Position numbers and translations under genes: made by a program. DNA of 33,321 nt, from the NCBI GenBank assembly GCA_913030825.1, contig CAJWCU010000030.1, forward strand, positions 1 through 33,321, written 5' to 3'. Position 1 is the first letter of the stretch. Each line of letters opens with the position of its first letter. This document shows positions 12,314 through 20,094 of this stretch, one piece after another. The notes beneath the pieces are model-generated. The model made no database searches and had not been told where the DNA came from. It was given only the letters and a program-made list of their open reading frames with translations. This DNA is from an uncultured Rhodospirillaceae bacterium (GTDB taxonomy: Bacteria; Pseudomonadota; Alphaproteobacteria; Rhodospirillales; Casp-alpha2).

Positions 12314-14992
12314 ATGAAGCCGCAAAGTCTGCATCTCTGGGCCTGGATCGCCAATATCACGGGTGCGGCGATGATCGTGGCGCTTATTGCGTTCGGATAC
12401 CATGCGGCCGAGCGCTTCCGCGCCGTCAATGCCCAGTGGCAGGCCTTCACCGAGAATTACGCCCAGATCAACAGCCAGCTGTTCCAGTTGCGCGAGGAAG
12501 TCGGGTATGGCGGGTTCATCCACCATTTCAAGAATTACGTCCTGCGGGGCGAGGAACGCTATCTCGGCAATGCCGTGGCGGATTCCATCGCCATCGACGT
12601 GCTCCTGGGTGACTTGCGCGCCGCCTTGCCGACGCCTGAAGAGCGACAGGCCCTGGATGATATTGCAGCTGTTTTCTATATTTATTTCATGCAGTTGAAG
12701 GTCGCGGAAGCGATGCACCAAAGTGGCAAGTCGGCGTCATTTATCGACGAGATCGTCAACGTTGACGACATGCCGGCGATCGCCGCGTTCAATAAATTGC
12801 AGCAGTTGGTTCAGGAGCGTAGCCAGAAAATTGGTCTTGAGGCCGAGCGGAAAATGTCCGCTGCCATCGGGTTTCTGTCCTTGGGCGGCATTCTGATCGT
12901 TTTCGTGATCTTGGTGACGGTGGTGATCAACATGTTCATTCGCCGCGTCATCGCCGACAACGCCCGGATACAGGCCGCCGACGAGGCGAAATCCGCGTTC
13001 CTCGCCAATATGAGCCATGAAATCCGCACGCCGTTGAACGCCATCGTGGGCCTGACCGGATTGGCCTTGCGGACCGAAATGACGCAACAGCAACGCGACT
13101 ATCTGACCAAGGTCGAAAAATCGTCCCATTCCCTTTTGGGAATCATCAACGACATCCTGGATTTTTCGAAGATTGAGGCCGGGAAACTGCCTATCGAGGA
13201 TATTGCCTTCCGCCTCGACCACGTGCTGGACGATCTGACGACCGTGGTGACCGAACGGATCGGCGCCAAGCCCATCGAACTGGTCTTCCGCATCGATCAG
13301 GAAGTGCCGCTCCACCTGCGCGGCGACCCGCTGCGGCTCAGCCAGGTTTTGATCAACCTGCTGACCAACGCGGTCAAGTTCACGGACCAGGGCGATATTC
13401 TGGTCGAGGTTCGCCTGCGTGACGCGGACCAAGGCAAGGCCCGCCTGTACTTCGAGGTTTCGGATACCGGCATCGGCATGACCGAGGAACAATTGTCCCG
13501 CATGTTCGAATCGTTTAGCCAGGCCGACGTATCTACGTCGCGGCGCTATGGCGGGACGGGGTTGGGTCTGGCGATCTGTAAGAACCTGGTCGAATTGATG
13601 GGGGGCGAGATCGGCGTCCGCAGCACCCCGGGGCGGGGCAGCACGTTCTGGTTCACGGTGGTCCTGGGGCGCGAACTTCTCCCCGCTGCGGAGATTGCCG
13701 CCGGTCGGGCCACGGATCTGCGCGGCCTTCGGGTTCTCGTCGCCGACGACAACGCAACGGCGCGCATGGTCTGCCAGGAAATGCTGACGGCGATGGCGTT
13801 CGAGGTGACGGCCGTGGCGTCGGGCGAGGCGGCCCTGGCGGAACTGCGTAAGGCGAACCGCCCGGGGGGCGCCGCTCCCTATTCCTTGATGCTGATAGAT
13901 TGGGCCATGCCCGGCCTGGACGGGATCGAAACGATCCGCCGCGTCAAGGCCATGGAAGATTTGGCCAAAATGCCGAAGGCGATCGTCCTGACGGCCCTGG
14001 GCCGGGATCAGGTGCGCCGCGTCGCGTCGGAAGCGGGGGCGGCGGCATTCCTGGTCAAGCCGGTCAATCAATCGATTTTGTTCGATACGATCGCGGAGCT
14101 TTACGACGGTTCGGAAATCGCGCCGGAAACGGCCGCCGCGGCATCCGGCGACAGGGGCGGACTTGACGGGGTCCGCGTGCTGCTTGCCGAAGACAACGAG
14201 ATCAATCAACAGGTCGCCGTGGAATTGTTGACCGCCGCCGGGGTCGCGGTGGATATCGCGGGCGACGGCCGCGTGGCGGTCGATATGGTCCGGCAAGGCG
14301 AATACGACGCGGTGCTGATGGATTTGCAGATGCCGGAATTGGACGGCTTTCAGGCGACCCGCGAAATCCGCGAGGACGCCCGGTTCGACGGTCTGCCGAT
14401 TATCGCCATGACGGCCCATGCCTTGAATGAAGAGCGGGAAAATTGCCTGGCCGCGGGCATGAACGACCATGTCGCGAAGCCGATCAACCCAAATGTCCTG
14501 TTCGAGACGCTGACACGGTGGACCGCGACGGCAGGCAAGGCGGAAGCGCCGTCCACCGCGTCCTCGTCTGCTCGGCCCGTGCCCGCGCCCCAAACGGCGG
14601 CCCCGGCACCGATGGAAAAGGCAGCGCCGCCGACCGGGGGATTGCCTGAGAGCCTTGCGGGGATCGACCTGGAAGAGGCGCGCGCGATGCTGCGGGGCAA
14701 CGACGTGTTGCTGGGCCGGTTGCTGTCGGATTTTCATGACAAATACATGGATTACGACGACCGGATCATCGAGGCGCTCGACGCCGGCGACACGGAAACC
14801 GCGATGCGGACGGCCCACTCCCTGAAAGGGGTTAGCGGCAATATCCGCGCGAAACGGGTGTTCGACGCGGCGCGGACGGTCGAAGACGCGTTGCGCACCG
14901 GGGGCGCGAACGGCCACGTTCTTGAAAAAATCGAAGATTTGTCCGTGGCGTTGGGCGAGGTCGAGGAATCCCTCGCGGTGCTCAAGGCCTAG
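12314..14992 (+). CDS. Hybrid sensor histidine kinase (TM-sensor-TM-HisKA-HATPase-REC-REC-HPt)
   Basis: This is an 892-aa inner-membrane phosphorelay protein. One membrane span (about 10-30) and a second (about 188-212, [19 protein letters not shown]) flank an extracytoplasmic domain of about 155 residues with [15 protein letters not shown] (64-78) and VDDMPA (D151-D152). HisKA has the phospho-acceptor H235 ([14 protein letters not shown]), followed by a HATPase with [20 protein letters not shown]. Two receiver domains have D529 ([10 protein letters not shown]) and D670 ([10 protein letters not shown]), and a C-terminal HPt has H835 ([11 protein letters not shown]). The layout supports a full internal relay ending on the HPt, which would pass phosphate to a separate regulator. 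The sensor region matches that of the third kinase in the island but not the second. The ligand is unknown. Confidence 0.93.
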
Positions 14993-15069
14993 GCGCAAGA
15001 TCGTCCGCCTCCGTGAAACTGGCTTGGAAATTGCTATGTCGGCAATAACCAGGTGAGTTGGGTGTCAAA

Positions 15070-18239: not shown

Positions 18240-18516
18240 GACCGGCCCATGCCTAGCCCAGACCTTCTTCGATGCCCAATCGATGGTTGAGCCCACATCT
18301 TCGAAGGAACAAATGCACGCTATGCGATAAAAAACCTGCGTCCCGATATCTGCTCACCTGCCGCCTATGACCTATGGCTAATTGATGCAGATCGAAAGTA
18401 GACCCATAAACTTAGTGTATTGGGAGAGAGCTTGGGACACGGGAGAAGGAGACCGAAGCGTAGCCGGCGGATGACCGGCGGGCTGCGCCAAACAAAACGA
18501 ACAAGGTCCCAGGTGG
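18240..18516. other. Intergenic stretch before the third kinase
   Basis: This is the bulk of a 304-nt gene-free interval. It holds no credible open frame and no tRNA-like structure. The central part (ACTTAGTGTATTGGGAG and nearby) is less GC-rich than its surroundings and may contain the promoter of the three-gene kinase-regulator operon. An imperfect GCCGGC-containing repeat pair lies about 50 nt before that operon. Confidence 0.4.
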
Positions 18517-20094
18517 ATGGTTCAGACCAGCAACGCGATTGAACGGACACTGTTTGCTTCGATGCTGTTGGGCATCGGCTTGTTCATTGCCGCGATCTAC
18601 GTCGCCTACCACAGCCTTCGCGAGGAAGGCGCGCTGAAGGATATCGATACCGCCCAATCCGCCATCGTGTCCGAACTGGCGGCGTTCTCGAAGATCCAAC
18701 GCGAAATCGGCTACAGCCGTTTCATTCACAACTTCAAGAACGGCGTCCTGCGTCGGGACGAAGGCAAACTGCGGCTTGCCCAGAAGAACCTGGAATCGGC
18801 CCTGGCGGCGCTGGACGAACTGGTGAAGTTGAACCCCGGCCTCAAATTGCATACGGAGCAGTTGCGCCAGACGTTGGACCTCTATCATTCCAACGCCTAT
18901 TTCGCCATCCGCCTGATCTCCAGCGGCATTCCCACGGATGAAGTCGATCGTGCGGTCAAAATCGACGACGGACCCGCCACCACCGATTTGAAGGCCTTGT
19001 TCGAAGCGATCTACCACGAACGGCTCGCCTTGCAGGAGAAACTGCAGGTATTGGTCGACGACCGCCGCCACCATGCGGAGTTCGACGTGGTGAAGGCCGG
19101 TGCCATGCTGCTGTTCGCGGTGACGCTGGGGTGGCTGCTCCTGGCGATGCGCTGGCGGGTTAAGGCCCTGCAAGCCGCCCAGGACGGATTGGCGCGGATC
19201 GAGGCGAAGTTCGCGAATCATGAGGACGGCGCCCCCGCCGGGTTCGAGAACATGCCCTTCCGCAATGTCGAGGACCGGATCGGGCAGCTGACCGCCCGGA
19301 TCGAGGCGCAGCAACGGGAACTGTTGACCCATGCCGACGGCCTGTCCACGGCGAACGAAGAGTTGGAGCGCTTCGCCTATGTCGCCTCGCACGACCTGCA
19401 GGAACCGCTGCGAAAGATTCAATCGAATATCGACCTGATCGGCCTGCGCGAAGGCGCCGCCGACGATCCCGATCTGACCGCGCGCCTGGACCGCATCGCC
19501 CGCGCCGCCGGGCAGATGCGGCAACTGATCCGCGATCTTCTGGAATATTCCCGGCGCGGGTCGCGGCCCATGAACAAGGGGCGCATCGAACTGCACGCGT
19601 TGATTGAGGATTGTGCGGCCCTGGCCCAGGAAAACCTGGATACGGTCGACGGCCGGATCACGGTGGAATTCAGCCCGCCCACGGCCGAAATCGACGGGGA
19701 TCCGTCGATGCTGTCCCAGGTGTTCGCCAACCTGTTCGAAAATGCGCAGAAATACGCCAGCACTGACCACTCCCCCGACATCACCGTGCGCGGCGTCGCC
19801 GACCCGGGTGGGGTCACGGTCACGGTCACCGACAACGGCATCGGGTTCGACGAGAAATATGCCGACGAAATCTTCAAGCCCTTCGTTCGGCTGCATCGGC
19901 GCGGCGAACACGGGGGATCGGGGATCGGCCTGTCGATCGTCAAACGCATCATCGAACGGCACGGTGGGACGATTTCGGCGCGGGGCGCGCCGGATCGTGG
20001 TGCCGAATTCACCATTCATCTGCCCCTGGCCGTGGAGCGTCCAGTAGAGCAGCCCGTCGAAGAGGAGGGGAAGCATCATGCGGAAGCAGTCTGA
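18517..20094 (+). CDS. Membrane sensor histidine kinase with DLQEPLRKI-type dimerisation domain
   Basis: This is a 525-aa inner-membrane kinase. A first span (about 11-32) and a second (about 193-212, MLLFAVTLGWLLLAM) flank an extracytoplasmic region with GYSRFIHNFKNGVLR (65-79) and IDDGPA (D150-D151). These are the same motifs, at the same spacing, as in the first kinase of the island. A coiled-coil linker leads to HisKA with H292 in VASHDLQEPLRKIQ, and a HATPase (NLFENAQKYA, DNGIGF, GGSGIGLSIVKRI). It has no receiver domain. This dimerisation-domain type is used by Cph1-like kinases, whose partners are single-domain Rcp1-like regulators; exactly such a regulator gene overlaps its 3' end by 17 nt. 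AAGGT stands 9 nt before the ATG. Confidence 0.92.
   Translation: MVQTSNAIERTLFASMLLGIGLFIAAIYVAYHSLREEGALKDIDTAQSAIVSELAAFSKIQREIGYSRFIHNFKNGVLRRDEGKLRLAQKNLESALAALDELVKLNPGLKLHTEQLRQTLDLYHSNAYFAIRLISSGIPTDEVDRAVKIDDGPATTDLKALFEAIYHERLALQEKLQVLVDDRRHHAEFDVVKAGAMLLFAVTLGWLLLAMRWRVKALQAAQDGLARIEAKFANHEDGAPAGFENMPFRNVEDRIGQLTARIEAQQRELLTHADGLSTANEELERFAYVASHDLQEPLRKIQSNIDLIGLREGAADDPDLTARLDRIARAAGQMRQLIRDLLEYSRRGSRPMNKGRIELHALIEDCAALAQENLDTVDGRITVEFSPPTAEIDGDPSMLSQVFANLFENAQKYASTDHSPDITVRGVADPGGVTVTVTDNGIGFDEKYADEIFKPFVRLHRRGEHGGSGIGLSIVKRIIERHGGTISARGAPDRGAEFTIHLPLAVERPVEQPVEEEGKHHAEAV

Follow-up and report, generated by a model that had tools for sequence, protein, structure and literature searches.

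A two-motif branch of the 4HB_MCP superfamily as the putative ligand-sensing domain of two sensor kinases from an uncultured Rhodospirillaceae bacterium

Receptors with a four-helix-bundle (4HB) sensor domain are dimers that signal via small shifts of helix 4. Structurally described is the MCP_DRK/VC1313 ligand-binding domain (8bsa, 8bsb), a 4HB in which a charged amino acid is bound within the monomer (PMC10390336), and for GlnX a helical tandem module with two four-helix bundles per chain and weak CHASE3 similarity has been described (PMC9769921). Here, we describe the extracytoplasmic sensor region of two kinases encoded on a DNA stretch of 33,321 nucleotides from an uncultured Rhodospirillaceae bacterium (contig CAJWCU010000030.1; this whole stretch is referred to as the window). 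Kinase 1 is encoded by an open reading frame (ORF) at 12314–14992 (+, 892 aa), and kinase 3 by an ORF at 18517–20094 (+, 525 aa). Their sensor regions represent one domain, which forms a clearly delimited branch within the 4HB superfamily; the libraries searched contain no separate model for it, and its fold is not new. We consider it fairly probable that this domain is a ligand-sensing four-helix bundle of a two-motif 4HB_MCP subfamily, in which polar residues at the membrane-distal end form a putative pocket for a small solute.

In kinase 1, the following features were assigned:

12335..12391, +, membrane helix 1 (residues 8–26), from a hydropathy scan, within the predicted helix 3–63
12404..12874, +, sensor domain (residues 31–187), supported by 150 bits with an independent profile and by AlphaFold2, with no library model above cut-off
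12503..12547, +, motif 1 (residues 64–78), a predicted turn (64–67) and helix (68–78), assigned by conservation
12746..12778, +, motif 2 (residues 145–155), in the predicted short helix 141–147 and the loop before helix 153–217
12872..12928, +, membrane helix 2 (residues 187–205), from the hydropathy scan, within the predicted helix 153–217
12986..14908, +, output part by Pfam, with HisKA (225–290), HATPase_c (337–450), two REC (best 622–733), and Hpt (803–865)

The corresponding features of kinase 3 are:

18550..18606, +, membrane helix 1 (residues 12–30), from a hydropathy scan (longer open frame, offset by 14 residues)
18613..19092, +, sensor domain (residues 33–192), supported by 82 bits with the independent profile and by AlphaFold2, with the helix order of kinase 1
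18709..18753, +, motif 1, GYSRFIHNFKNGVLR (residues 65–79), a predicted turn (65–68) and helix (69–78)
18946..18978, +, motif 2, DRAVKIDDGPA (residues 144–154), in the predicted helix 140–146 and the loop before helix 152–229
19087..19143, +, membrane helix 2 (residues 191–209), from the hydropathy scan, within the predicted helix 152–229
19363..20031, +, output part by Pfam, with HisKA (283–349) and HATPase_c (394–505)

A preliminary description of the window had noted both motifs in these kinases of differing cytoplasmic layout, and the two ORFs and the Pfam assignments bear this out: motif 2 includes VNVDDMPA in kinase 1 and VKIDDGPA in kinase 3, with the DD pair at residues 151–152 and 150–151, respectively, and the motifs have the residue positions and spacing given there. 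BLASTP aligned the two sensor regions with an E-value of 7e-10 and 32% identity over 113 aa. A profile built from 67 loci, without the two sequences of the window and without the near-copy L067, gave 150.2 bits for kinase 1 and 81.9 bits for kinase 3, and none of 1,000 shuffles of the sensor regions exceeded 6.8 bits with it. The profile matched neither of the other two kinases of the window (15058–17526 and 20494–21738). Chance similarity is thus ruled out by the shuffles together with the independent profile, and at the sequence level the similarity is homology. The proposal of one homologous extracytoplasmic domain between two membrane helices was thereby confirmed by BLASTP and the profile, and also by a common predicted fold, with the size of about 155 residues now widened to about 130–155. 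We do not favor the view that either kinase recently arose from the other by duplication, as the two stand apart on the tree described below, many forks of which are unresolved; the end branch of kinase 3 amounts to 2.55 changes per column.

Using an alignment of 70 sequences as input, AlphaFold2 modeled residues 1–218 of kinase 1 and 1–230 of kinase 3 with mean pLDDT values of 94.9 and 91.7, and with high confidence both sensor regions are predicted to be antiparallel four-helix bundles between membrane helices. In the kinase 1 model, a first helix (3–63) comprises membrane helix 1 and bundle helix 1, followed by the turn GYGG (64–67), helices 68–78, 81–104, and 108–136, a short helix (141–147), the VDD loop, and helix 153–217, in which bundle helix 4 and membrane helix 2 are continuous. 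From bundle helix 1 onward, the order of elements is identical in kinase 3, and the models therefore argue against different folds in the two proteins. Motif 1 of kinase 1 forms, in the model, the turn that joins bundle helices 1 and 2 plus the start of helix 2, and motif 2 forms the link between bundle helices 3 and 4; read from the helix boundaries, both motifs are helix connections at the membrane-distal end. A bundle flanked by membrane helices, as in the 4HB_MCP superfamily with its members 4HB_MCP_1, CHASE3, TarH, and HBM, was thus found with AlphaFold2 and in Foldseek comparisons against the Protein Data Bank (PDB). Judged among the 50 matches listed for kinase 1, the best superposition by TM-score was 8bsb, the domain of the V. 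cholerae D-amino-acid receptor (TM-score 0.75 by target length and 0.57 by query length, 3.1 Å), and the good superpositions were 4HB ligand-binding domains, namely 8bsb, MCP2201, LytS, and Tsr. The better superpositions of kinase 3 were 3va9, 5xsj, 7wrm, and 4k0d. By sequence profile, no PDB relative was found with an E-value below 0.05, and 8bsb differs from the domain of kinase 1 in having only 8% identity and no sequence-profile match.

How the domain relates to named families had to be examined at several levels. In Pfam and NCBIfam, no model reached its cut-off over either sensor region, and only the cytoplasmic parts matched. The trimmed regions gave sub-threshold matches to CHASE3 (PF05227, cut-off 28 bits), with 12.0 bits for kinase 1 (E 0.2) and 13.8 bits for kinase 3 (E 0.054); a slightly shorter cut of the kinase 1 region did not show this match, and in the full-length protein P0002 the CHASE3 score of 20.1 bits had its best stretch at 309–350, in the kinase part. 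A sub-threshold TPR_2 match of the kinase 3 region (16–17.7 bits, cut-off 27) left our assessment unaffected. Neither window region matched 4HB_MCP_1 (PF12729, cut-off 27 bits) at E ≤ 10. Among 20 relatives scanned singly, five exceeded the 4HB_MCP_1 cut-off: five of the ten in a set chosen by us, which were mostly chemoreceptors of Desulfo- lineages (31.5–37.1 bits, spanning most of the profile), and none of the ten in a set of full-length proteins. None of the singly scanned relatives reached the CHASE3 cut-off, the maximum being 25.8 bits. At E ≤ 0.1, 35 of the 70 aligned relatives matched 4HB_MCP_1, and 34 of the 70 matched CHASE3. When profiles built from 28 fetched domains of each family were compared by hhalign, the probability was 93% for 4HB_MCP_1 (120 columns) and 83% for CHASE3 (66 columns), and a GYLLTG-type segment of CHASE3 aligned with the segment after motif 1. 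For NIT (PF08376), which is also a helical sensor, the probability was only 0.6%, which rules out NIT as the identity of the domain; the preliminary description had likewise recognized no NIT pattern. Common ancestry with the 4HB_MCP superfamily is thus detectable in the sequences, with 4HB_MCP_1 and CHASE3 as the members compared by hhalign. The earlier view that the domain lies outside the described kinds holds insofar as no library model covers it, but it was too strong in view of this kinship, and a hit to a described sensor domain was obtained for some relatives (4HB_MCP_1), not for the two window sequences.

With these results, one may ask whether the region is a plain 4HB_MCP_1 or CHASE3 domain that the Pfam models miss, without a separate identity. 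The relatives above the 4HB_MCP_1 cut-off, the matches in about half of the aligned relatives, the sub-threshold CHASE3 matches in both window regions, the hhalign links, and the occurrence of CHASE3 in tandem are all in line with this explanation. We nevertheless regard it as improbable, as both window regions stay below any 4HB-type cut-off and as the converse comparison separates the families: with the profile of the new domain, the domains fetched for 4HB_MCP_1 and CHASE3 (28 each) scored at most 16.2 bits, whereas the best copy reached at least 100 bits in 141 of 145 domain-holding frames (the four lowest 53–89; frames of overlapping loci are counted more than once in this number). Motif 1 was found in 65 of 70 copies of the new domain, and in 0/28 domains of either family. 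It is because of these reverse scores and the absence of motif 1 from the 56 fetched domains that we treat the domain as a separate branch. It shares with 4HB_MCP_1 the four-helix bundle, a similar length, and the position between two membrane helices, and with CHASE3 the helical sensor character and the superfamily. The NCBIfam GlnX model gave 13 bits for P0001 (cut-off 250) and matched 44 of the 70 relatives weakly (best E 3.9e-7), which probably reflects shared 4HB character. No printed mention of the motif strings was found in the literature searched, which did not cover subscription journals.

As judged from the sequences, the subfamily is set apart by the signature GYGGxIHxFKNxxLR plus DxxVxVDDxPA. 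We determined conservation from 70 copies that had been found by profile without requiring a motif, with near-duplicates within one genus included. In kinase 1 numbering, the most constant positions are G64 (69 copies), G67 (67), K73 (69), R78 (68), Y124 (67), and D145 (69), and less constant are H70 (62), N74 (57), D151 (58), and D152 (59). Position 70 is His in 62/70 and Glu or Asp in 7/70 copies, and position 74 is Asn in 57/70 and Asp in 11/70, so that the His that had been called invariant is only conserved. In alignment A3 (70 rows), G64 and D152 are spaced 86–89 residues apart. The charged residues are conserved across outputs and phyla.

The genome to which the window belongs encodes three proteins with the domain, namely kinases 1 and 3 with one copy each and a chemoreceptor with a tandem pair, which gives four copies altogether; a stretch of 33 residues that matched weakly in the same genome (G000:C27, E 0.39) was absent from the matches of a deeper profile. 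With a four-row profile, the domain was detected in 26 of 61 relatives and in 47 of 299 genomes of the phylum, the window's genome being counted in both. A pattern scan of species genomes gave at least 589 stretches, of which 547 were confirmed among the matches listed, and 80 were kept as named loci. As this pattern required IHxFKNx[VI]LR, conservation within these 80 is selected. By NCBI ranks, they comprise 42 loci from Pseudomonadota, 22 from Thermodesulfobacteriota, five from Myxococcota, three from Campylobacterota, two each from Nitrospinota, Ignavibacteriota, and Spirochaetota, one from Thermotogota, and one without rank, so that eight phyla are represented. Other receptors share the motifs as well, among them chemoreceptors, kinases, and diguanylate cyclases, with output labels assigned by sequence patterns and checked by Pfam for 10 proteins. 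A tree was calculated from 88 copies of L067–L146 and L001–L003, with copies of a profile span below 90 and other loci dropped and 11 rows without output label. It requires at least seven changes of output type, compared with a mean of 21.8 after shuffling. The strongly supported branches force only a single change in each group, and 40 of the 85 inner branches lack resolution; a movement of the sequence module between output types is thus suggested but not proven.

What could be the function of the conserved residues? The preliminary description had proposed the His, Phe-Lys-Asn, and Arg of motif 1 as candidate ligand contacts. In the reading that we favor, His70, Lys73, Asn74, Arg78, Tyr124, Asp145, Asp151, and Asp152 of kinase 1 would contribute to a distal pocket, and the ligand would belong to a class of small charged or zwitterionic solutes. 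By analogy to other 4HB receptors, the receptor would be a dimer in which helix 4 moves relative to helix 1 once the ligand is bound. In kinase 1, no HAMP domain was matched by Pfam, and the predicted helix 4 runs unbroken through membrane helix 2 to residue 217 of the 218 modeled, with the HisKA match beginning at residue 225, so that such a shift would change autophosphorylation directly. Several points weigh against this view. The clustering at the distal end is derived from helix boundaries of a model alone. No Foldseek match of kinase 1 or kinase 3 had an E-value below 0.001; for kinase 1, the first row by E-value was 9m08, which superposes poorly (14.1 Å), and designed bundles and animal receptors were also among the matches, and for kinase 3 the top rows by E-value were unrelated helical membrane proteins. 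Furthermore, the authors of the work on MCP_DRK place its pocket at the bottom of helices 2 and 3, in our reading the end opposite to the motifs described here; MCP2201 binds its ligand inside the bundle, and Tar and PcaY_PP bind at the dimer interface (PMC10390336).

The conserved residues could instead be structural, capping the bundle and forming salt bridges between the distal connections, with the signal arriving via a docked periplasmic binding protein or via a ligand at the dimer interface; the docking of XylFII to LytS, the docking of GlnH to GlnX as proposed, and the Tar dimer interface are examples of such routes. We consider this explanation rather unlikely. The seven copies with Glu or Asp at position 70 are exactly the seven copies with Pro at position 152, a covariation that is expected of contacting residues, but it is limited to one lineage, being derived from the first copies of a tandem receptor of one genus. 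4HB domains with partner proteins do exist (PMC9769921), and at L129:2501–3832 a kinase with the domain is preceded directly by a gene for a periplasmic binding protein (Peripla_BP_4). In our survey of the 80 named loci, which covered 125 nearest-neighbor ORFs (at most 700 aa), no binding-protein family was however among the 25 commonest of 148 families. The commonest family was the response regulator (13/125), the rest being scattered, and these neighbors indicated no ligand. In our judgment, the conservation of charge across phyla and outputs also exceeds what bundle stability needs.

The same survey bears on the idea that the domain senses a metal ion or the redox state through His70 and the Asp residues, which would act as ligands. 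Near the same end there are indeed one His and several Asp, and six related kinase loci (SH-aLRT 90 on the tree) are found beside peroxidase genes: a di-haem CCP_MauG gene adjoins the kinase in L128, L138, and L141, together with an OmpR-type regulator by Pfam in L128 and L141, and an AhpC-type gene lies upstream in L091 by Pfam and in L092 and L126 by their near-identical starts (AhpC-TSA, 3/125 neighbors). We think this very improbable, since the His is replaced in 7/70 copies and so many Lys and Arg residues would be unusual at a metal site, and since peroxidase neighbors were seen only around that group, with most neighbors not individually inspected.

Most copies of the domain are single and lie between two membrane helices. 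Among the 80 named loci, six have two copies per frame, as do several loci from genome searches; such tandems occur in chemoreceptors, diguanylate cyclases, and a kinase, and L033 has three matched stretches. The GlnX authors state that no other tandem of membrane-anchored 4HB domains is known to them, and as we read their article, GlnX has four membrane helices, one pair per bundle (PMC9769921). In contrast, the two copies described here share a single membrane-helix pair where the frame is long enough, as in L002, L132, L146, and L025. The tandem arrangement is not special to the new family, because CHASE3 also occurs in tandem. In L106, which is one of the six, at about 4001–4540 of a metagenome-assembled contig, a tandem-copy gene has an in-frame stop inside the first copy.

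A third architecture is the nesting of the domain in NIT, with which it shares no profile similarity. Among 150 NIT matches listed from the 299 genomes, 118 reach profile position 235–239 and 32 end at 203–209, and the new domain adjoins 26 of the 32 shortened matches and none of the 118 full-length ones. Of the other six shortened matches, four have a diverged copy (best stretch 33–39 bits), and two have an insert without significant score. Against a second NIT profile, for which 30 NIT receptors had been fetched, eight nested receptors aligned to about position 283–287 and resumed at 281–287 after about 115–124 residues of the new domain; six further nested receptors, including the Nautiliaceae loci L098, L131, and L140, aligned more weakly. 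As seen by sequence alignment, the insertion is at one position inside NIT, which supports an independently folding module, and the nesting is feasible because the two ends of the bundle lie together. An insert of about 85–89 residues at the same NIT position in L237 and L241 does not score as the domain, with a GWGGL trace in L237.

In the window, several genes next to the two kinases can be noted. An aldehyde ferredoxin oxidoreductase (AFOR) gene (10275–12104, −) is divergent to kinase 1, and this pairing is kept in L010, L067, L068, L070, and L038, with 93–99% identical AFOR and 56–94% identical kinase 1 orthologues; judging by their likeness, these five loci may come from only three species. 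A ThiS-like gene adjoins the AFOR gene in L067, L068, and L070, the loci with enough flanking sequence. Immediately upstream of kinase 3 is a hemerythrin gene (17754–18212, +). In L068, a 54% identical hemerythrin gene separates the kinase 1 orthologue from malic enzyme, and L070 has nothing at this place; because of this layout kinases 2 and 3 and the two response-regulator genes look like additions in the species of the window. Hemerythrin as a family-wide partner was dismissed, as a phmmer search of frames of at least 80 aa in 146 loci, many with only 1.5 kb of flank, found it beyond the window's loci only in L068. Kinase 3 is followed by a stand-alone receiver (20078–20533, +) and a receiver-kinase (20494–21738, +) that the domain profile does not match, and these may be its partners. 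At L111:2949–4409, a kinase with the domain precedes a response regulator with receiver, DUF3369, and GGDEF, and the gene that follows L076:5774–7270 has a start similar to that of this regulator.

Sensor domains outside the described families are common, as 45% of the clusters in a survey of chemoreceptor ligand-binding domains had no Pfam family (PMC8547431). This limits the surprise, and the sharp signature, the breadth, and the fixed insertion in NIT add interest. For one family-less group, the borders are now sharply drawn, the fold is predicted, and a two-part signature can be given together with the receptors in which it occurs. The amino-acid motif of dCache domains marks one ligand class. 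In the case of the new domain, we can only tentatively suggest a single family in at least eight phyla that shares a ligand class at the distal tip, where none of the 4HB receptors compared binds its ligand, and that acts as a cassette in single, paired, or NIT-nested form, the latter as a two-signal receptor. If the signature does mark one ligand class, the ligand of one member could annotate hundreds of receptors, and the NIT-nested form would allow one to study how a single output is shared by two sensor modules.

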